DNA from: Bacteroidota bacterium | GTDB lineage: Bacteria > Bacteroidota > Bacteroidia > UKL13-3 | DNA length: 64,000 bases | NCBI GenBank assembly: GCA_027488905.1 | Contig: JAIYAT010000017.1 | Span: 62,001-126,000 of the forward strand | Reading direction: 5' to 3' | Shown here: positions 34,278 to 63,953 of the stretch, one piece after another | Layout of the letters: every line of letters starts with the position of its first letter | Numbering within the stretch: the stretch's first letter is position 1 | Program-made: the position numbers and the translations under genes | Notes under the pieces: generated by a model | Told to the model about the DNA's origin: nothing | Seen by the model: the letters and a program-made list of their open reading frames with translations, nothing else | Database searches by the model: none

Positions 34278-36248
34278 TTATTGTAACAACATTTTTTGTA
34301 AATCATTTGAGTTTGGCAAGGTTACGTCATTATCTAAACTTTCGAAGATTGAATTTTTACTTTTAAATTCAGGAACGATTTTTTTCATTTTGCCTACTAT
34401 TAACATATTATCTTGAGAGGAATAACTATTAATTAAATCCTCTATTCTTGATTTAGTTTCAATAAAATCATACTCTCTAACCTTGCCAATCATGATTTTC
34501 TCATGATGCGTTTGTAAAGAGTTTTCTTGGTCATTCAATAGTTCTTCAAATATTTTTTCTCCTGGCCTTAATCCTGTATAAATAATCTGAATGTCTTTAC
34601 CTAGGGTCAAACCGCTTAACTTAACCATTTTTTTAGCCAAATCTACAATCTTGGTACTCTTACCCATGTCAAAGATGAATATTTCACCTCCTTTACCCAT
34701 ATTTCCTGCTTCCAGAACCAATTGACATGCTTCAGGTATAGTCATAAAATACCTAGTAATGTCTGGATGAGTTACGGTAATTGGTCCACCTTCTTCAATT
34801 TGCTTTCTAAACCTAGGAATCACAGAGCCACTTGAGCCAAGAACATTTCCAAATCGAGTGGTGATAAATCTCGTTTTGGTTCCATCCGTTTTGATTAGAT
34901 GATTATTTAAACTTTGAACATAAATTTCTGCAATTCTTTTACTTGCACCCATTACGTTGGTAGGATTTACAGCTTTGTCTGTGCTCACCATTACAAATTT
35001 ACTTGCACTAAATTCAACTGCTAAATCAGAAACTGTTTTGGTCCCATTTATATTTGTCCAAACTGCTTCACCAGGGTTTTCTTCCATTAATGGAACATGC
35101 TTATATGCAGCGGCATGGTAAATGATTTCTGGGTGAAATGCCTCGAAAACCCTTGTCATTCTTGGCTTATTAGTAATATCAGCAACCACAATATCCACAA
35201 AAGTGTTTAAAGCCCCAGGATGATTTTCTGAAATTTCCGAATCTAATTCGTATAGTTTAAATTCATCCTTATCAACGCAAACAAGTTTCTTTGGTTTGAA
35301 TTTTAGCAATTGTCTCACCATTTCGGAGCCTATGGAGCCACCTGCTCCTGTAACCATTACTACCTTATTATTTACCTGATTGCCTATGGCATCTTTATTT
35401 AGTTTAATTACATCACGCTCGATTAGATCTTCAATCTTCGCTTGTTTAATTTGCTTAAAACTTAATTCCCCATTTATCCACTTCTCTACTGGTGGCACCG
35501 TTCTAACAATAACATTCAAATTGAGGCATCTTTCAATTACATCTTGTTTTTTGCTAATTGGTAAGTCTTGATCAGCAATTACCAACTGTTTTATTTCAAG
35601 CTTTCTGATAACTGATTCTAAATCGTGGTTACCATTAAAAATAGTAACACCATCTAATATTTTTTCAAAGGTTGTATTACCATTATGAAAAAATGCCACT
35701 ACCTTAATTGCATGTTCACTTTCCAATTCAAGCTTTCTTTTTGCAATAATTCCAGAAGAACCTGCACCATAAACAGCATACGATTCCTTGTCTGACTTTG
35801 AATTGGAATTTATCCTAATAAACATTAACCTAACAAAAAGCCTAAAACTGCCTAAAAAGAAAGTTGATAAAATAAAATCTACGATTAAAAGGGTGACTGG
35901 AAAGATATGCTCCTTTTTTAAGGGGAAATACAGATAAACAGAATCGATTATAAATAAAAACAAAAATGAAGTACTCATGGCATAAAAAATCCTTACTCCA
36001 TCTTGAATACTTGTGTGCCTTATTACAAATGCATGTAACCTAAAATAACTTATAGAAACAGCTTTTACCATTAGTAATATAGGAATTGCTGATAAGGCAT
36101 CATATAAATTATTTACATTAAAGTCTAGCGTATACCTTGATACAATTGCTAAAACATAGGCTAATGCGCATAAACCAATATCAAATAGCAAAATAAACCA
36201 GCGTGGCACTTGACTAGATTTCGAAAAGATTACTCTTAACAGTTTCAT
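34278..36248 (-). CDS. CapD/PglF/WbpM-like nucleotide-sugar 4,6-dehydratase (membrane-bound)
   Basis: The 656-residue protein has four N-terminal TM helices, a Rossmann-like cytoplasmic domain (VYGAGSSGIIAKRKLE) and, from about residue 295, an extended SDR domain: MVTGAGGSIGSEMVRQL, CVDKDEFKLYEL, AAAYKHVPLMEENP and FVMVSTDKAVNPTN. The last motif has Asp and Lys in place of the usual Tyr-Lys pair, as in this inverting or retaining UDP-GlcNAc 4,6-dehydratase group. It makes a 4-keto-6-deoxy UDP-HexNAc for further amination or epimerisation. It is about 90 bp from the xrtF group on the same strand. Confidence 0.93.
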   Translation of the reverse strand: MKLLRVIFSKSSQVPRWFILLFDIGLCALAYVLAIVSRYTLDFNVNNLYDALSAIPILLMVKAVSISYFRLHAFVIRHTSIQDGVRIFYAMSTSFLFLFIIDSVYLYFPLKKEHIFPVTLLIVDFILSTFFLGSFRLFVRLMFIRINSNSKSDKESYAVYGAGSSGIIAKRKLELESEHAIKVVAFFHNGNTTFEKILDGVTIFNGNHDLESVIRKLEIKQLVIADQDLPISKKQDVIERCLNLNVIVRTVPPVEKWINGELSFKQIKQAKIEDLIERDVIKLNKDAIGNQVNNKVVMVTGAGGSIGSEMVRQLLKFKPKKLVCVDKDEFKLYELDSEISENHPGALNTFVDIVVADITNKPRMTRVFEAFHPEIIYHAAAYKHVPLMEENPGEAVWTNINGTKTVSDLAVEFSASKFVMVSTDKAVNPTNVMGASKRIAEIYVQSLNNHLIKTDGTKTRFITTRFGNVLGSSGSVIPRFRKQIEEGGPITVTHPDITRYFMTIPEACQLVLEAGNMGKGGEIFIFDMGKSTKIVDLAKKMVKLSGLTLGKDIQIIYTGLRPGEKIFEELLNDQENSLQTHHEKIMIGKVREYDFIETKSRIEDLINSYSSQDNMLIVGKMKKIVPEFKSKNSIFESLDNDVTLPNSNDLQKMLLQ

Positions 36249-36342: not shown

Positions 36343-38088
36343 TCATTTTTTCACAGGACTTAATCGATAGCCTTCCTTTGGAGAATTTCCAAGTGCTTGA
36401 ATTTCATATCCAAATTGATATAAAAATGTACCATGACTTGGGCTTTGGCAGGGCAGAGGCTGATTCCAGCAATAACTTGTAAAGCGCGATGTATCTGAAT
36501 ATTGGTGGTAAGGTAAAAAAATGTTTTTAGGTTCAAATCCGTTAAAAGTAGTAATCTGTTTATTTCTAGATTGGGACTTGAATAAATGAAATGGAACAAA
36601 GCTAAGTATCACAAAAAGGACTAAAGTGAAATATGGAACAAGAAATTTTTGATTTAATAATTTTTTGTTCCAATAATTTCCTATGCATAGTGAAGCAAGG
36701 CCTATAGCAGAGGGTAGCATTAGTCGATATTGGCGCAAAATAAGCCATTCAAGAGCCAGCAGAAGTAGGGTCAAACCAATAAAAAACAATTGAGTTCTAC
36801 CAAGTGCTACTCCAGCTATTGGTTTACGAATGGCTTCCAAAAGCAGTAATATGAAGCCAATTATCCAAATTAAACTCATTAATTTGTTTATAATTCCCTT
36901 GTAGCCTGAGCGTTGTATCCAATTTAGGTATTGTTTCAAAATAGAGTGGTTTTCAATATTTTTCCTTACCACATTGGCGCTAAAATCATCTTTAACCCCC
37001 CAATTTACAATCCCATTTCTGTAGGCTTGGTTCCAATCTAATGGAACTTGCCAAGTTGGTTTAGGCAATACACTTCCCAATATTGGAATAGATTGATTTG
37101 CCATGGGATACAATATATGTCCAGATAAACTATAGTTTTTTATTAAGCCTGGAACCAATAATGCTAAAGGCAAAAGTATAATGGAGGCCAATCGGGTGGC
37201 TTTTTTAGAGAGGCTGTTTAATATTTCATCTTTTAAGAAGGCACTCCAAATGTTTTTGTAAGCAATTATACCAACTATCACAGGCAACAAAGCAGGTGGT
37301 TTTAACATGAACCCAAAACAAGCTAAAATAAATACTACCCAATTTTGTTCTGTTTTGCTAATGGCAATGTAAATAATTAATCCTGTATAGAAAATTATGG
37401 GTAAATCTGGAGAAGGGGCGCTTAAAAACAAAAAACCAATTGGGATAAATAAAATTGAAAAGATGATATTAAAAGGATTGGCATTATGGTAACTTTCCCA
37501 AGTTAAAAAACAAAGCGCAATTATAAGCATAAAGCCGTTTATGCCAAGGTATTGGATTCCTTCGGTGGGGTAAAAAGCATCGAAAATAGTTTGACCTGAA
37601 AACAAAGATAATAAGCTGTGCCAACTGCTGTATAAGCCGTAAGCTGGGTGCAGGTTGGCAAGTCCGTTTACCAATCCATAACTTTGCATCCATTTTAAGG
37701 TTTGCAAATAATACATGCCCATATCATTAATTTTAGTAATTTGGGCACTATGGTAAGCCATCAAAAGGCTTGAACCGAATAAAGCAAAAAGTAAAAATTT
37801 GGGCAGACCCATAAATTTTTGTGTGCTGTTTTTTATTTCGGTTTGAACCAAGGTTCCAAAACGCCATTTAATAACTGGTGCTCCAATTGCCACCACTAAA
37901 AAAGAAAAGAAATCAATTTTACCGCCAAGCAACATACATTGACTCAAATGTGCCAAGAGGGCAATTCCAATTAGAATAACAAAAAATGGGTTTTCTGGGA
38001 GCTTCTTTTTGGTTAATACAAAAGGCAGCAACCCGTAGGCATGAGCAATCCATCCTAATAATAAGCCGAAAAGCAGGTTTAGAATCAT
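36343..38088 (-). CDS. Polytopic membrane protein downstream of xrtF, GT-C-like (resembles LIC_10190 family)
   Basis: The 581-residue protein has 12 or more TM helices. The large first loop has TKINDMGMYYLQTLKWMQSYG and then NLHPAYGLYSSWHSL, which I associate with the LIC_10190 family of uncharacterised membrane proteins, with acidic residues suited to a GT-C transferase. Its start overlaps the stop of the XrtF-associated gene by 4 bp (ATGA), so the three are one translational unit. Function unknown; a part in XrtF-linked glycan or protein anchoring is inferred from the coupling. Confidence 0.65.
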   Translation of the reverse strand: MILNLLFGLLLGWIAHAYGLLPFVLTKKKLPENPFFVILIGIALLAHLSQCMLLGGKIDFFSFLVVAIGAPVIKWRFGTLVQTEIKNSTQKFMGLPKFLLFALFGSSLLMAYHSAQITKINDMGMYYLQTLKWMQSYGLVNGLANLHPAYGLYSSWHSLLSLFSGQTIFDAFYPTEGIQYLGINGFMLIIALCFLTWESYHNANPFNIIFSILFIPIGFLFLSAPSPDLPIIFYTGLIIYIAISKTEQNWVVFILACFGFMLKPPALLPVIVGIIAYKNIWSAFLKDEILNSLSKKATRLASIILLPLALLVPGLIKNYSLSGHILYPMANQSIPILGSVLPKPTWQVPLDWNQAYRNGIVNWGVKDDFSANVVRKNIENHSILKQYLNWIQRSGYKGIINKLMSLIWIIGFILLLLEAIRKPIAGVALGRTQLFFIGLTLLLLALEWLILRQYRLMLPSAIGLASLCIGNYWNKKLLNQKFLVPYFTLVLFVILSFVPFHLFKSQSRNKQITTFNGFEPKNIFLPYHQYSDTSRFTSYCWNQPLPCQSPSHGTFLYQFGYEIQALGNSPKEGYRLSPVKK

Positions 38089-38477
38089 GTGAGTTTAGAT
38101 TTTGACATAGAGATTTTGAATGCAAAACTACTGATTACCAAAAGTGGTGAAAACAAGATTGGGTTTAGGAATTTGCTTACCTCAGAAGGGATAATTCGAA
38201 AGTAGGAGTAAAAATACAAAGAAGACAAAGCCAACAGAAGGCCAAAAAGTAGTATTAGGTTTTTCCTTTGCCAGTAAGGTCTTGGGATTAAAATGGCCAA
38301 TCCAATTAGATTAAGGCTTAATCGAATTAACTTATTGGAAATCAAACCAAAAAAGGAAGTGTTTGGATTGGTCCATTCAAAATAGTTTTCAAAGGTAAAG
38401 TCAATTGGGTTGAGTGATTGTATTGCAAAATTTAGCAGTATTAAGCCAAATAGATAGGCGATTTGTTTACTTTTCAT
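38085..38477 (-). CDS. Exosortase F system-associated membrane protein
   Basis: The 130-residue protein has four predicted TM helices and a shape typical of the small protein encoded next to xrtF in Flavobacteriia (LIPRPYWQRKNLILLFGLLL, then FRIIPSEVSKFLNPILFSP). It overlaps xrtF by 11 bp and the next gene by 4 bp. I rely on position, size and general pattern, so family membership should be tested by a profile search (TIGR04127). Confidence 0.75.
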   Translation of the reverse strand: MKSKQIAYLFGLILLNFAIQSLNPIDFTFENYFEWTNPNTSFFGLISNKLIRLSLNLIGLAILIPRPYWQRKNLILLFGLLLALSSLYFYSYFRIIPSEVSKFLNPILFSPLLVISSFAFKISMSKSKLT

Positions 38478-38988
38478 CCACTATGTTATTTGCTTCTTTA
38501 CTATTATTTTTCTGAAACTTCACCCAAAAAACCATTATCAGAAAGGCAAAACCATAAAGTAATGCAGGAAAAGCATATTCATGGAAAAGTGGAAAATATG
38601 GGGTGTAGTTGTATTTGATTTGAACCAAAAGCCAAAGTCGCAGGACATTTCCAAATTGAAGCAAAGCAAAACTGCTAGGAATAAACCATAAAAATGCAAT
38701 TGCTCTTCCTCCAAAGGCAAGGCAAAATGCAAAGAGTGTTATAAAGATGGCCATGCCATTGCAACCTTCGGCAATATTTACCATGGCCTTTTGGTTAAAA
38801 TACACAATAAACCCTGAGGCATCAGATTTTAGCATGGTGTTAATTGAATAAAACGCGTTATCTATTAAATATGCCGCCAATTTCGTAAAGGGGTCGGGCC
38901 TAAAAAATTCTGTTGTAAGCCAATAGGCGATGTTTCCAAACAGGTAGGCAACGATAAATTTGATCAAAAATATTAAAGAGGGATGCAT
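38467..38988 (-). CDS. xrtF: Exosortase family protein XrtF
   Basis: The 173-residue integral membrane protein has the exosortase/archaeosortase catalytic residues in order: Cys76 in NIAEGCNGM, Arg117 in FGNVLRLW and His136 in PLFHEYAFP. These form the proposed Cys-Arg-His active site facing the periplasm. Size and the partner gene point to XrtF. Exosortases cleave and attach C-terminal sorting signals of exported proteins. For XrtF I know no defined target, and I saw no PEP-CTERM-like tail in this window. It is divergent from the UpxY gene. Confidence 0.85.
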   Translation of the reverse strand: MHPSLIFLIKFIVAYLFGNIAYWLTTEFFRPDPFTKLAAYLIDNAFYSINTMLKSDASGFIVYFNQKAMVNIAEGCNGMAIFITLFAFCLAFGGRAIAFLWFIPSSFALLQFGNVLRLWLLVQIKYNYTPYFPLFHEYAFPALLYGFAFLIMVFWVKFQKNNSKEANNIVDEK

Positions 38989-39109: not shown

Positions 39110-39667
39110 ATGATGAAAATACTCCCATCCTCAGAAAAAAAATGGTATCTTGTTTATACTAATCCTCGTGCTGAAAAGAAAGTGGCAAAAGTATACGAAC
39201 AAATCGGATTGGAATATTTTTTGCCCTTACAAAAAACTATTAAACAGTGGAGCGATAGGAAAAAATGGGTTGAGGAGCCCTTGTTTAAAAGTTATGTATT
39301 CATCAAAATAGATTTAGAAAAATCGGTTTATCAAGCTTTATCAGTTTCTGGTGCCTCTAGATTGGTTCAATTTAATGGTAAGGCAGCGGAGGTCGATGAA
39401 CGGGAAATCAATATTGTCAAAAAACTTTTAGGAGATCTTTCTGAATTAACCATTTTAAATTCTTCTAAAGACTATTTGGAGCACCAAGAAGGAGATGCCA
39501 TTGAAGTAATTGCAGGACCTCTAATGGGATGCGAAGGTAAATTTTTAAATAAAAAAGGTAGCCAAAGCGTTTTGATTGAATTGAAGACGATGCAACAAGT
39601 GGTTTGTGTATCCATGCCATTAGCTTATATTCGCTTATTAAAGAACCCAAGTAATAAAATAGCATAA
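39110..39667 (+). CDS. UpxY-like transcription antiterminator (NusG/RfaH family)
   Basis: The 185-residue protein has a NusG N-terminal domain (KWYLVYTNPRAEKKVAKVYEQIG, LPLQK, KSYVFIKID) and a C-terminal KOW-type domain (GDAIEVIAGPLMGCEGKFLN). UpxY proteins are first genes of Bacteroides capsule operons and let RNA polymerase read through their leader and long transcription unit. It lies 1 bp before the wza-like gene and starts a run of 25 kb on one strand, so a local role is likely. The ATG at 39110 is followed by another ATG, and either may be used. Confidence 0.92.
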   Translation: MMKILPSSEKKWYLVYTNPRAEKKVAKVYEQIGLEYFLPLQKTIKQWSDRKKWVEEPLFKSYVFIKIDLEKSVYQALSVSGASRLVQFNGKAAEVDEREINIVKKLLGDLSELTILNSSKDYLEHQEGDAIEVIAGPLMGCEGKFLNKKGSQSVLIELKTMQQVVCVSMPLAYIRLLKNPSNKIA

Positions 39668-39668
39668 A

Positions 39669-40502
39669 ATGAAGTATAATTTTTTAAAGATGTTTAGGCT
39701 TGTAATCATACCTGTTTTTATTGGATTGATGTTCTTAACATCTTGCGTTTCCAATAGGCGATTTATTTATATTCAAGATAAAGGAGATGTTAAGATGGAT
39801 ACCTCGCAACATATCTTAATAGAGCCCTATAATTATAAAATTCAGAATGGAGATATTTTGTATATTAGTTTAATGTCCACGGATGATGGAATAAATAAAT
39901 TATTTGTTCCAAGCGCGCAACCAGGACAAGGTACTGGAGTTGGCGGAGGAATGGGGTCTCCCTTTTATTTTACTGGTTTTACTGTAGATCCAGAAGGAAA
40001 GGTAGAGTTGCCTTATGCAGGCAAAATAGCTGTTGCTGGTTTAGATTTAAATGGTGCCCGAGCGATGTTATCCTCAGAACTCGCTAAATATTTTAAAGTA
40101 TTTTTCTTACAAGTTAAAATGGCAGAATTTAGATTTAGTATTATGGGTGCAGTTAATTCACCTGGACAATTCTTTTTCCAACAAAATAAAGTAAGTATTT
40201 TAGACGCGATATTAAAAGCTGGTGATTTAAAAGACAACGCTATCCGCCACGAAATACAATTGTTTAGACAATATCCAGAAGGGGTAAAAATGATTACAAT
40301 TGATTTAACAGATCGTCGAATAATGAACTCTCCTTACTGGTATATTCAACCAAATGATTTAGTGTATGTTATACCACTTAAAACAAGGGCAATTGGAGAC
40401 TTTTCTAGTTTTCAGACCTCAATGGGGGCAATTGGACCAATACTTAACAGTTTCTTTTTATTTGTTAATGCATACGTTTTTTTTAGAGCCATCAACCAAT
40501 GA
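39669..40502 (+). CDS. Polysaccharide export outer-membrane lipoprotein (Wza/BexD-like)
   Basis: The 277-residue protein has a lipoprotein signal ending in MFLTSCVSN (lipid Cys at about residue 26). A Poly_export domain follows (YKIQNGDILYISLM...VDPEGKVELPYAGKIAVAGL) and SLBB-like repeats (FSIMGAVNSPGQFFF...LDAILKAGDL). The C-terminus is hydrophobic. It forms the outer-membrane exit channel and overlaps the wzc-like gene by 4 bp. Confidence 0.93.
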   Translation: MKYNFLKMFRLVIIPVFIGLMFLTSCVSNRRFIYIQDKGDVKMDTSQHILIEPYNYKIQNGDILYISLMSTDDGINKLFVPSAQPGQGTGVGGGMGSPFYFTGFTVDPEGKVELPYAGKIAVAGLDLNGARAMLSSELAKYFKVFFLQVKMAEFRFSIMGAVNSPGQFFFQQNKVSILDAILKAGDLKDNAIRHEIQLFRQYPEGVKMITIDLTDRRIMNSPYWYIQPNDLVYVIPLKTRAIGDFSSFQTSMGAIGPILNSFFLFVNAYVFFRAINQ

Positions 40503-43018
40503 AAAATTATAACATCAGTAACAATGAAGAGGATTTTGTATCAAAGAATAAGGTTACAGAAATTCCTTTAGATTTTAAAGTAGTAATTGGAAAGGTGCTC
40601 TCCTTTTTGCCAATTTTCATTTTGTCAATAGGATTTTCTATACTAATTGCCTGGACGGTGACGAGGTATTCAGAGAGCAGGTATTTAGTATCTGGCAGCA
40701 TTTTGCTTAAAGAAAAAGGCAGGGGGGGAACAGCAGGTTTTGAAAATTTCATAGAAGGAATGGAGTTGCTTTCTGTAAATAGAAACATAGAAAATGAAAT
40801 GGCAATCATACGTTCAAAAAAAATGGTTTTAGAAACAATCAATAAGCTTGATTTTGGTGTTTCAGTTAAACAAAAGGGAGCAATTTTAGACCAAGACTTG
40901 TTTCGAATCACTCCATTTATAATAGAAATTGACAGCAACCATGTTCAGCTAATTGGCACAGATATTAAATGCCGGTTTATAAATGATAAATCTGTTGAAG
41001 TTTGGGTGGAAGAACCAGGATATCCATACATTATTAAAACAGGCGAGTATTTAAATGGCAAACAAATTTTAGAGAAAACAGTATTTGATTTGGAAAAAGG
41101 TGTTTTTACAGAAAATTTGGGGTTTAAAATTAATGTTTGGAATAAAACAGCCATAAAGCCTTCATCTGAGTTTCATATACAGTTTTTAAATAGTGAAATG
41201 CAATTAGGTCTTTTTTATGGACAATATGCAGTTGCACCCATAAATAAGCAAGCTTCCATCTTGAATATAAGCATGGAAACACCAAACCCAACCAAGGCCC
41301 AAGCGTTCATCAATGAGCTGTTTAATACTTATCTAGAAACTGATCTTAAAGAAAAATCGGCAGTCACAAAAAGAACGATTTCGTTCATCGATGAACAGTT
41401 AAGTATTGTTTCAGATACCTTAGGAATTGTAGAGAATGAGTTAAGCACTTTTAGAAACTTAAATAAAATAGTGTCAATTGAGTCTAAAGCAGGTGAATTA
41501 GTATCCGTTATGGTGGAAATGGAAAGCGAAAAAGTAAAAATACAACTACAGAATCGTTACCTTGATTACCTAGAGGCCTATATAAAAGATTCAAAACCAC
41601 TCGACGAATTGGTATTACCAGGAGTGGCGGGAATCGAAGATAATTCAATCAAAAATATTACAGATAAAATGATAGAGCTTTATGTTAAGAAAAAAACATT
41701 AGACGCCAGCTATCACCCTAAAAATCCGATTTTTATAGAAACAAATCAAGCTTTACTCGGGCTTACAGAAGCAGTTTTAGCATCGATTAAAGGACTTCGT
41801 AGCAGTCTTAAAATTAACAATAAGTTTATAGATGATCAGATTTTGAAAATTAATGGTCAAATAAGTTTGTTACCAGAAACTGAACAAAAAATGATAAGAA
41901 TGAATAGGAAATTCTTGCTTAGTGATAAACTATATACTTACCTATTAGAAAAAAGAGCAGAAGCTGGTATTGCTGGGGCAGGGGTAGAACCTGACAGCAA
42001 AGTTGTGGAGGAAGCAGCCATACGAGAACAAACTTTTCCAAAGCCTTCGAATAATTATATTCTTGCATTTAGTATTGGTTTAGTAATACCTCTCATTTTT
42101 ATTTTAACTTTTGAATTTTTCAATCAGGATATAAAGAATCACACCCATCTGCAGGAGTTTACTCGAATTCCTTTAGTAGGAACAATCAATCACAATGATA
42201 AAAATACGGCGCTAGTAATTGCGAATCATCCTAAGTCCCAAATTTCTGAATCATTTAGAACCCTCCGCAGCAATATTGCTTATATTGGAGAGAAAAAAGG
42301 AAAGCGAACTATAATGGTTACCTCTACAGTTTCTGGAGAAGGGAAAACCTTTATAAGTATGAATTTAGCTTCAGTATTGGCAATTGGTGGATATAAAACT
42401 ATTTTAGTTGGAGTTGATTTAAGAAAGCCCAAGATTTTTCAAGATTTTAAACTTGATAACAGTATTGGTTTAAGCAATTTCTTAATTGGGAAAGCCTCCA
42501 TCGAACAAATAATTCAGTCAACTGGCTTAGAAAATTTAAGCGTAATTACTGCAGGGCCAACGCCTCCCAACCCATCTGAGTTAATTATGTCAGATAGCTT
42601 TTATGATGCTATAAATGACTTGAAAGAAAAGTTTGATTTTGTAATTTTAGATACCCCACCAATTGGTTTGGTGGCTGATGGATTAGATATCATGAAACAC
42701 GTAGATGTTGTGCTTTACGTGGCACGACAAAATGTTTCGAAGAAAACTTTCTTTGGTATGATCAATGAAATCTATTCAAATGAATCAAATAAAAATATTG
42801 GTTTAGTTTTCAATGATGTAAACTTTGCCACCGTTTATGGATACGGCTATGGTGCTTATGGATATGGCTATGGTTATTCCAGTGGCTATGGCTATGGCAG
42901 TGGCTATGGTTATGGCTATGGTTATGGCTATGGATATGGATACGGGTACGGATCAGGTTATGGCGAAATTGAAGATTCAATAGAGAAACCTTTTTGGAAG
43001 CGCATACTTGGATTTTAA
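40499..43018 (+). CDS. Wzc-like polysaccharide co-polymerase / BY-kinase with Gly-Tyr C-terminal tail
   Basis: The 839-residue protein has a Wzz domain between two TM helices (about 35-53 and 522-540), coiled-coil regions in the periplasm (residues 300-520) and a C-terminal bacterial tyrosine kinase: Walker A VSGEGKTFISMNLA, Walker A-prime VDLRKPKIF and Walker B FVILDTPPIG. In place of the usual short Tyr cluster it ends in a Gly-Tyr array with 18 Tyr (42836-42964) before the last EIEDSIEKPFWKR. Wzc controls chain length and export through cyclic phosphorylation. It follows wza directly. Confidence 0.93.
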   Translation: MKNYNISNNEEDFVSKNKVTEIPLDFKVVIGKVLSFLPIFILSIGFSILIAWTVTRYSESRYLVSGSILLKEKGRGGTAGFENFIEGMELLSVNRNIENEMAIIRSKKMVLETINKLDFGVSVKQKGAILDQDLFRITPFIIEIDSNHVQLIGTDIKCRFINDKSVEVWVEEPGYPYIIKTGEYLNGKQILEKTVFDLEKGVFTENLGFKINVWNKTAIKPSSEFHIQFLNSEMQLGLFYGQYAVAPINKQASILNISMETPNPTKAQAFINELFNTYLETDLKEKSAVTKRTISFIDEQLSIVSDTLGIVENELSTFRNLNKIVSIESKAGELVSVMVEMESEKVKIQLQNRYLDYLEAYIKDSKPLDELVLPGVAGIEDNSIKNITDKMIELYVKKKTLDASYHPKNPIFIETNQALLGLTEAVLASIKGLRSSLKINNKFIDDQILKINGQISLLPETEQKMIRMNRKFLLSDKLYTYLLEKRAEAGIAGAGVEPDSKVVEEAAIREQTFPKPSNNYILAFSIGLVIPLIFILTFEFFNQDIKNHTHLQEFTRIPLVGTINHNDKNTALVIANHPKSQISESFRTLRSNIAYIGEKKGKRTIMVTSTVSGEGKTFISMNLASVLAIGGYKTILVGVDLRKPKIFQDFKLDNSIGLSNFLIGKASIEQIIQSTGLENLSVITAGPTPPNPSELIMSDSFYDAINDLKEKFDFVILDTPPIGLVADGLDIMKHVDVVLYVARQNVSKKTFFGMINEIYSNESNKNIGLVFNDVNFATVYGYGYGAYGYGYGYSSGYGYGSGYGYGYGYGYGYGYGYGSGYGEIEDSIEKPFWKRILGF
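42836..42964 (+). repeat. Gly-Tyr codon repeat at the end of the wzc-like gene
   Basis: A 43-codon array of mostly GGN-TAY pairs, broken by Ser-Ser-Gly, Gly-Ser-Gly and one Ala, carrying 18 Tyr codons. The near-6-bp periodicity (tat ggc / tat ggt) makes it prone to length change. Confidence 0.92.
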
Positions 43019-63188: not shown

Positions 63189-63953
63189 ATGATTCTTCAG
63201 CGGTTTAAAAACTTTCTTAGAATTTCTAATTTAAAAAATGCACATAAAAAAGGTACTGCCTTTATTATAGGGAACGGTCCAAGTTTGCAGGCAAAAGACC
63301 TCGACCTCATCCGACAATATAATATTCCTACTTTTGCAAGTAATAAGATTTATAAAATATTTAATAAAACAGACTGGCGGCCAAGTTACTATGTAATTGA
63401 GGATTATGGAATTTGTTCCTCTAATTACAATGAAATTCAAGAGAAAATTACTTGTCCAATTTTTGCAGGAAATTATTTAAAAGAGTTTTTCCCAAATAAT
63501 ACCAAAGCATTATTTTTTGAACAAATTGGGAGGGTAGATCCTCCTGAAATCCCAGACTTTTCAAAATCTATCGCGCATGGTATCAATGCAGGTGGAACGG
63601 TAACTTATACTTGTATGCAAATAGCCTATTATCTTGGCTTTACAGATTTAATTCTACTTGGTGTAGACTTTAGTTATTCAACGCCTGGTTTAAGGCCTCA
63701 TGACACAATGCATGGGTATAAAACTTATACTCCAGACAATTCAGCTAATTATTTTGATAGCAATTATCTTGATGAGAAGGAAAATATTTTTGCACCTGAT
63801 TTGGAAACTTCCTACTGTGCCTACAAATCTGTTTCTGAAAAGATAAAAAATGGAAGTTTAAAGTGTCAAGTAAGAAACGCTACCAGAGGTGGGAAGTTAG
63901 AGGTTTTTGAAAGAGTTAATTTTGATGACTTAAATTTAAAGGACTGCCATTAA
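63189..63953 (+). CDS. DUF115 / MptE-like domain protein
   Basis: The 254-residue protein has TAFIIGNGPSLQAKDLDLI (a GNGPS nucleotide-binding-type motif), ASNKIYKIFNKTDWRPSYYVIED and GINAGGTVTYTCMQIAYYLGFTDLILLGVDFSYS. This is the pattern of DUF115/MptE-like proteins, which in surface-glycan and flagellin loci are linked to glycan transfer (Maf and similar). The family resembles nucleotide-sugar glycosyltransferases of the sialyltransferase-like folds. A role in sugar transfer is inferred from context. Confidence 0.75.
   Translation: MILQRFKNFLRISNLKNAHKKGTAFIIGNGPSLQAKDLDLIRQYNIPTFASNKIYKIFNKTDWRPSYYVIEDYGICSSNYNEIQEKITCPIFAGNYLKEFFPNNTKALFFEQIGRVDPPEIPDFSKSIAHGINAGGTVTYTCMQIAYYLGFTDLILLGVDFSYSTPGLRPHDTMHGYKTYTPDNSANYFDSNYLDEKENIFAPDLETSYCAYKSVSEKIKNGSLKCQVRNATRGGKLEVFERVNFDDLNLKDCH

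Follow-up and report, generated by a model that had tools for sequence, protein, structure and literature searches.

The window, by which we mean the whole stretch of 64,000 nucleotides analysed here (contig JAIYAT010000017.1 of a Bacteroidota bacterium), encodes a three-gene unit that we read, with modest confidence, as an exosortase module of the XrtF branch with its own GT-C glycosyltransferase. This module would move tiny peptides onto a glycan or lipid acceptor made with the help of the GT-C enzyme, and surface proteins of type IX secretion (T9SS) would use the same pathway. The features of the window are listed below.

39110..43018 (+): first genes of a divergently oriented polysaccharide cluster, namely an UpxY antiterminator, a Wza-like export protein and a Wzc-like kinase (profiles)
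38467..38988 (-): gene 1 (xrt), exosortase of the XrtF branch, 173 aa (ATG ORF, profiles, alignment, tree)
38761-38763 (-): codon of Cys76 of the exosortase (alignment)
38638-38640 (-): codon of Arg117 of the exosortase (alignment)
38581-38583 (-): codon of His136 of the exosortase (alignment)
38467..38477 (-): overlap of xrt and gene 2, 11 bp (ORF coordinates)
38085..38477 (-): gene 2, multi-helix membrane protein, 130 aa, remote relative of TIGR04127 (XrtF-associated protein) (ATG ORF, profile comparison, structure prediction)
38085..38088 (-): overlap of gene 2 and gene 3, 4 bp (ORF coordinates)
36343..38088 (-): gene 3, LIC_10190-family membrane protein, 581 aa, predicted GT-C fold (ATG ORF, profile, alignment, structure prediction)
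37723-37725 (-): codon of Asp122 of gene 3 (invariant in 18 rows)
34278..36248 (-): Polysacc_synt_2 gene (nucleotide-sugar dehydratase/epimerase), downstream of gene 3 after a 94-bp gap (profile)

The three-gene unit

The overlaps of 11 and 4 bp had already been described in a sequence-only reading of this DNA, and the ORF coordinates agree with it. They are not a product of chance, since the identical gene order with gaps of -11 and -4 was found in the same-genus genome G116, and xrt and gene 2 adjoin the gene-3 homologue in 13 of the 19 loci retrieved by a genome scan. The polysaccharide cluster lies upstream of xrt in divergent orientation and continues to about position 63953 of the window. 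On the other side, a gene of 656-657 aa resembling the Polysacc_synt_2 gene follows gene 3 in L214, L215 and L224 as well, and it is possible that this gene is a fourth member of the operon.

With 43 bits, gene 1 exceeds the cut-off of 23 set for the general model TIGR04178, which places it in the exosortase/archaeosortase superfamily. The scores against the XrtF model TIGR04128 (73.9 bits) and the XrtX model NF046081 (71.2 bits) were under the respective cut-offs of 90 and 170. The name xrtF given to it previously holds in terms of phylogeny, but strictly not by NCBI's own model: in the tree the protein groups with high-scoring XrtF proteins in a 26-row XrtF branch (support 100/99). Within this branch the exosortases linked to gene 3 form one clade of 13 rows, also supported by 100/99, and the exosortases of G134, G036 and G104 form a separate clade. 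Cys76, Arg117 and His136, which we take to be the active-site residues, are invariant in a 14-row alignment; in one of 18 rows Cys76 and Arg117 are invariant and His136 nearly so. A search with the XrtF model made this enzyme appear to be the only exosortase of the genome, a view dropped when the general models revealed a second one, XrtN (289 bits), adjoining its own VIT-domain protein (783.6 bits). Both are found at L253:3834-7665 as a complete, one-to-one sorting pair of XrtN and VIT-domain substrate.

Gene 2 had no direct match at E 0.01 to the exosortase-associated models, including TIGR04127. Of 30 gene-2 proteins, the XrtX-associated model recognized 17 and the XrtF-associated model 8, and neither recognized the protein of the window. 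These two groups are related to each other (E 9.8e-10 in a profile comparison), and the group of the window (15 rows) aligned to the XrtF-side partners with an hhalign E of 2.4e-8 and a probability of 95.3% over 133 columns. The earlier description of gene 2 as XrtF-associated can therefore be kept as a remote homology, although not as a direct match to TIGR04127. Kinship of this clade with the XrtX-associated partners was also considered and found unsupported (probability 10%, E 0.0033). The predicted fold has four to five helices (pLDDT 89.8) and no match with E < 1 was found for it in the PDB.

Gene 3 was recognized by the LIC_10190 model NF047510 with 169.1 bits (cut-off 100), which bears out its earlier assignment as LIC_10190-like. 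Its structural model, built from an 18-row alignment, reached a pLDDT of 83.7 and a pTM of 0.89. The best VIA hit was ArnT, with a Z of 10.5 (rmsd 4.7, 344 residues aligned), a value that helical bundles can reach by chance, followed by others such as ALG12 (9.8), EmbB (9.2), OST (8.5) and Pmt (8.3); the first clear non-GT-C entry in the list was at rank 35. Foldseek gave no hit with E < 0.001, the best being human ALG9 at 0.013. The first periplasmic loop contains the conserved Asp typical of GT-C enzymes, Asp122, invariant in 18 rows, which from the aligned ranges is presumably the counterpart of the ArnT Asp. The top VIA rows are in line with the GT-C-like character proposed in the sequence-only reading, and we consider gene 3 a putative GT-C glycosyltransferase by predicted fold. 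The role suggested for it there, a sugar transferase that may serve XrtF-anchored targets, is compatible with these sequence-derived data. The genome of the window has a second LIC_10190-family gene, at L133:5016-6638, away from any exosortase.

Distribution of gene 3 and of exosortases

A class sample of 158 genomes was searched with the XrtF (TIGR04128), LIC_10190 and PID-CTERM models, and genomes with a TIGR04128 match at E 0.001, a definition that includes XrtX-type enzymes, were called exosortase-positive. There were 98 such genomes, 26 of them over the TIGR04128 cut-off. LIC_10190 matched in 29 genomes, in 14 of them over the cut-off and at 17 places. As a general exosortase partner this family was discarded, as there is no genome-wide correlation (the cut-off was passed in 11 of the 98 genomes with an exosortase match and in 3 of the 60 without one; Fisher P 0.25). 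A LIC_10190 gene was located at 2 kb or less from xrt in five of the 98 exosortase-bearing genomes, on the same strand and at 430 to 477 bp in G000, G116, G143 and G134, and on the opposite strand at 1561 bp in G036. Such proximity at 5 of 17 places has a chance of 4e-11 if the places are independent and of 3e-4 if they represent two events.

The genome scan was done with a four-row gene-3 alignment. Three of its 19 loci apparently repeat genomes of the class sample (L214 being G116, L229 being G143 and L230 being G134), and if they are left aside xrt and gene 2 are present in 10 of 16 loci. Among the 13 linked loci the arrangement is divergent in L218 and has a 770-bp gap in L224. L219 and L220 have gene 2 alone, without xrt, beside the gene-3 homologue, and at L222, L231 and L232 neither xrt, gene 2 nor PID-CTERM was found. 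Across the linked loci gene 3 falls to 32-38% identity, and to 23% in L230. The sequence-only reading would have fallen if the third gene did not accompany xrtF beyond close relatives. The survey of neighbourhoods that it proposed upholds it in a limited form, with a fully supported clade and identities of 32-38%, but with gene 3 near xrt in only 5 of the 98 genomes.

In three genomes of the window's own family, each from a different genus (G010, G052 and G087), the exosortase does not belong to the XrtF branch, and a different protein of about 575 aa occupies slot 3 of the exosortase operon (L139, L140 and L141). In G010 this protein matches HTTM (PF05090) over the cut-off, and in G052 and G087 it has no match over a cut-off. 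Gene 3 must be dispensable for PID-CTERM processing in general, because it is beside xrt in so few genomes and another protein takes its slot elsewhere.

PID-CTERM proteins and T9SS cargo

The small PID-CTERM proteins are probably the substrates of the XrtF/XrtX-type exosortases, judging from sequence evidence, and this is the strongest part of our proposal because co-occurrence, adjacency and tail anatomy coincide. The model NF046080 matched in 73 of the 158 genomes, over the cut-off in 68, at 98 places (1 to 5 per genome). All of the 68 are exosortase-positive (68/98 against 0/60, Fisher P 3e-21), and with weak matches included the figures are 72/98 and 1/60, the exception being G149, under the cut-off. 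Fisher values of this order (about 1e-21) overstate independence, since genomes of one class are kin. In 44 cases a PID-CTERM gene immediately precedes xrt and shares its strand, with 38 to 279 bp between match edges. The sequence-only reading knew of no defined XrtF substrate; the PID-CTERM proteins, with a predicted cleavage, are now a strong candidate by co-occurrence and adjacency. The pairing of PID-CTERM with XrtX is itself already known to NCBI curators, since NCBIfam has names for PID-CTERM, XrtX and the XrtX-associated protein.

The proteome search for short C-terminal tails proposed in the sequence-only reading was run for PID-type tails only, and yielded three PID-CTERM proteins of 63, 69 and 68 aa in the genome of the window, with scores of 42.1, 38.3 and 33.4 bits, all over the cut-off of 26. 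Their genes are at three other places, outside the xrt operon, and, counted by eye, the stretch that starts at the predicted mature Gln and reaches the motif Asp has 14 residues in all three. One of them is followed, with a 4-bp overlap, by a gene for a 180-aa membrane protein without family match. A wider PID profile of 20 rows was run on 26 exosortase-positive genomes lacking a curated match and on 20 of the 60 exosortase-negative ones. It gave near full-length matches in ORFs of up to 140 aa in 20 of the 26 (16 at E 0.001) and in none of the 20, six of which had partial, mostly signal-peptide matches. The genomes gained include some with XrtF scores over 200 bits (G062, G095 and G151), and G125, with an XrtF score of 205 bits, has a PID-CTERM protein over the curated cut-off. 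G143 possesses the whole three-gene unit and no PID-CTERM protein over the curated cut-off, with one found by the wider profile only. In the same genome two adjoining proteins with PID-like tails (L244) have 194 and 58 aa, and therefore substrates are not always tiny.

An unexpected result is that about half of the PID-CTERM genes follow a gene for T9SS cargo. Sequence could be read at 94 of the 98 places (three lacked a sequence stretch and one an ORF). A same-strand upstream ORF within 400 bp was present for 73 PID genes, to which one was added by hand (C23, in the genome of the window, at 19 bp), making 74. The upstream genes matched TIGR04183 (T9SS type A) in 45 of the 74 at E 0.01 and PF18962 in 42, and a local T9SS profile matched 46, one of them added by hand, that is, 46 of the 94 PID genes. 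Among the other genes of the same stretches a T9SS domain was found in 36 of 901 (4.0%). A count of 45 in 94 has a binomial P of 2.5e-37, or of 1e-20 with a background of 10%, both values ignoring kinship. The T9SS-preceded PID genes comprise 18 of the 44 adjacent to xrt and 28 of the 50 others, and come from 37 genomes and, counted by hand, 25 families. No T9SS match was found for 28 of the 73 same-strand upstream genes. TIGR04183 by itself gave 81 to at least 150 matches per genome in 20 genomes.

In the genome of the window all three PID-CTERM genes come directly after a T9SS cargo gene, with gaps of 13, 231 and 19 bp, and a terminal PF18962 is present in each of these cargo genes. The pairs of PID-CTERM gene and T9SS cargo gene are located as follows.

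L122:1279-4647: PID-CTERM and T9SS cargo
L101:2285-4096: PID-CTERM and T9SS cargo
L003:1459-2020: PID-CTERM and T9SS cargo

In G014, G145 and G009 there is a 4-bp overlap between the PID gene and a T9SS-like gene (upstream ends set by eye). At L223:489-7869 a T9SS-like gene is followed by a PID-CTERM gene and this by a gene-3 homologue broken into two ORFs; the stretch has no xrt. An Ice_binding domain (PF11999) was seen in T9SS cargo preceding PID genes both in the genome of the window, in one of its three cargo genes, and in the distant G055 (L108:4188-7574 and L094:4266-6875).

We regard a pathway shared by PID peptides and T9SS cargo as a lead, somewhat less than evenly probable. The profile of the T9SS sortase PorU has no discriminating power here, being over its cut-off in 149 of 158 genomes. 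The exosortase-positive genomes G076, G106 and G135 have weak PorU matches only, which is evidence against a strict need for the T9SS; G135 has PID-CTERM over the cut-off and the T9SS sortase not over its own. The idea that the N-terminus of the PID peptide could act as nucleophile for PorU was put aside because most mature ends are Gln (first in 59 of 92 mature peptides by a simple rule), and an N-terminal Gln is expected to become a blocked pyroglutamate in Bacteroidota.

Proposed mechanism, alternatives and known systems

From the gene order, the active-site residues, the co-occurrence of PID-CTERM and exosortase, the T9SS-PID coupling and the GT-C-like predicted fold we infer cleavage, acceptor, gene 3 activity and a joint role at the surface, as follows. 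The tiny PID-CTERM proteins, three in this genome and encoded elsewhere, would be exported by Sec, and signal peptidase would leave about 14 residues (QP...DDVPLD) before the membrane helix and basic tail. The exosortase (Cys76/Arg117/His136), aided by gene 2, would cut near P-[ILV]-D-G and move the short peptide onto a periplasmic acceptor, for which a lipid-linked glycan of the adjoining polysaccharide cluster is the likeliest candidate. Gene 3 would take a polyprenyl-phosphate sugar and build or finish this acceptor, and the peptide product would work jointly with T9SS cargo on the cell surface. That gene 3 contributes to making the acceptor we rate at slightly under an even chance.

Gene 3 might instead belong to the adjoining polysaccharide cluster as an ordinary glycosyltransferase, carried along in the exosortase operon without any sorting role, which we think rather doubtful. 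The operon does border that cluster, most exosortase loci lack gene 3, there is no genome-wide correlation (P 0.25), and related genera carry another protein in slot 3. This is countered by the 13 of 19 loci in which xrt and gene 2 adjoin the homologue in varied surroundings, by two further loci with gene 2 alone and L223 with PID-CTERM, and by the 5 of 17 LIC_10190 places within 2 kb of xrt. It is improbable that, in place of making the acceptor, gene 3 behaves as a protein O-mannosyltransferase or an oligosaccharyltransferase would and puts sugar straight on the substrate peptide or on T9SS cargo. The protein-modifying GT-C enzymes Pmt, OST and PglB are among its structural matches, but the best ones are enzymes of lipid A or lipid-linked sugars (ArnT, ALG12, Emb), though with close Z values, and by eye there is no Ser or Thr in the predicted 14-residue mature part of the three PID peptides of this genome. 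Slightly more improbable still, PID-CTERM proteins could be structural or regulatory micro-membrane proteins never cleaved by exosortase, with the T9SS coupling reflecting ordinary operon formation. In favour of this, a helix and a basic end are what the tail of any single-pass protein would have. Against it stand the strict co-occurrence with exosortase and the 44 adjacent pairs, and NCBI curators call PID-CTERM a sorting domain, if only in the model name.

Our preferred reading, the acceptor-building GT-C module, can be extended to a broader and unlikely one. The XrtF and XrtX enzymes of Bacteroidota would then sort no large proteins and would load a surface glycan or lipid with tiny, dedicated peptides whose genes share operons with those of T9SS adhesins, the peptide-glycan serving as anchor, docking site or attachment partner for T9SS cargo. 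Exosortase and T9SS sortase would be two stages of one pathway, and the GT-C enzyme would have been added in this clade to tailor the acceptor. If PID peptides and T9SS cargo do share a pathway, two separately studied surface-anchoring systems would be joined, and the GT-C enzyme would gain a role in making the exosortase acceptor. In the parts seen, PMC7468200 describes exosortase acceptor chemistry as still unidentified and speculates on a link of the T9SS linking sugar and Vim-type proteins with exosortase systems. Part of PMC10936215 gives the same phenotype row for deletions of xrtF, Fjoh_1449 (the partner), porU and porZ in Flavobacterium johnsoniae, with less sand colonization, much less biofilm and zorbs abolished. 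These equal rows help the joint-pathway lead, although two unrelated mutants share the row as well. The targets of XrtF are unknown according to the part seen of PMC12188702 and are deferred to future work in that of PMC10936215, and the named, small set of candidates makes the question directly testable in F. johnsoniae, where the xrtF and partner deletions exist. In the open-licence literature we found no mention of XrtX together with exosortase, of LIC_10190 or of PID-CTERM, and no prior report of the XrtF-branch extension of PID-CTERM, the T9SS coupling or the GT-C clade.

Among known systems, the XrtF system of Flavobacterium (TIGR04128/TIGR04127) has an exosortase of the same branch with a small membrane partner as core, and its known polysaccharide link fits the glycosyltransferase and EPS setting of the window. 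The window differs in its score of 73.9 bits (under 90), in a partner without direct TIGR04127 match, in the third, GT-C-like gene and in the fully supported clade that its exosortase forms. The XrtX/PID-CTERM system (NF046080, NF046081, NF046082) is paralleled by the three PID-CTERM proteins over the cut-off, but the exosortase of the window, with 71.2 bits (cut-off 170), lies in the XrtF branch, its partner profile gives E 0.0033 and a probability of 10% against the XrtX-associated group, and the PID-CTERM genes are not beside xrt. In the system described in part of PMC7468200, where PorU joins T9SS cargo to A-LPS and the linking sugar is that of Wbp/Vim, surface proteins of Bacteroidota are likewise sorted to a glycan anchor, whereas here the link is a coupling at the gene level of exosortase substrates to T9SS cargo. 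The PEP-CTERM/XrtA (EpsH) system resembles the present one in having an exosortase beside exopolysaccharide genes and a tail of motif, helix and basic end. It has many large substrate proteins per genome, in contrast to the one to few tiny substrates found here, and the motif here is P-[ILV]-D-G, not PEP. Among the PID-type tails searched, P[ILVFM]D[GSNQA] is present in 86 of 94 PID peptides. CWPP was seen in 33 of the 94, mostly as CWPPPC just ahead of the PID motif, and the sequence of these paired cysteines suggests a loop or a modification site.
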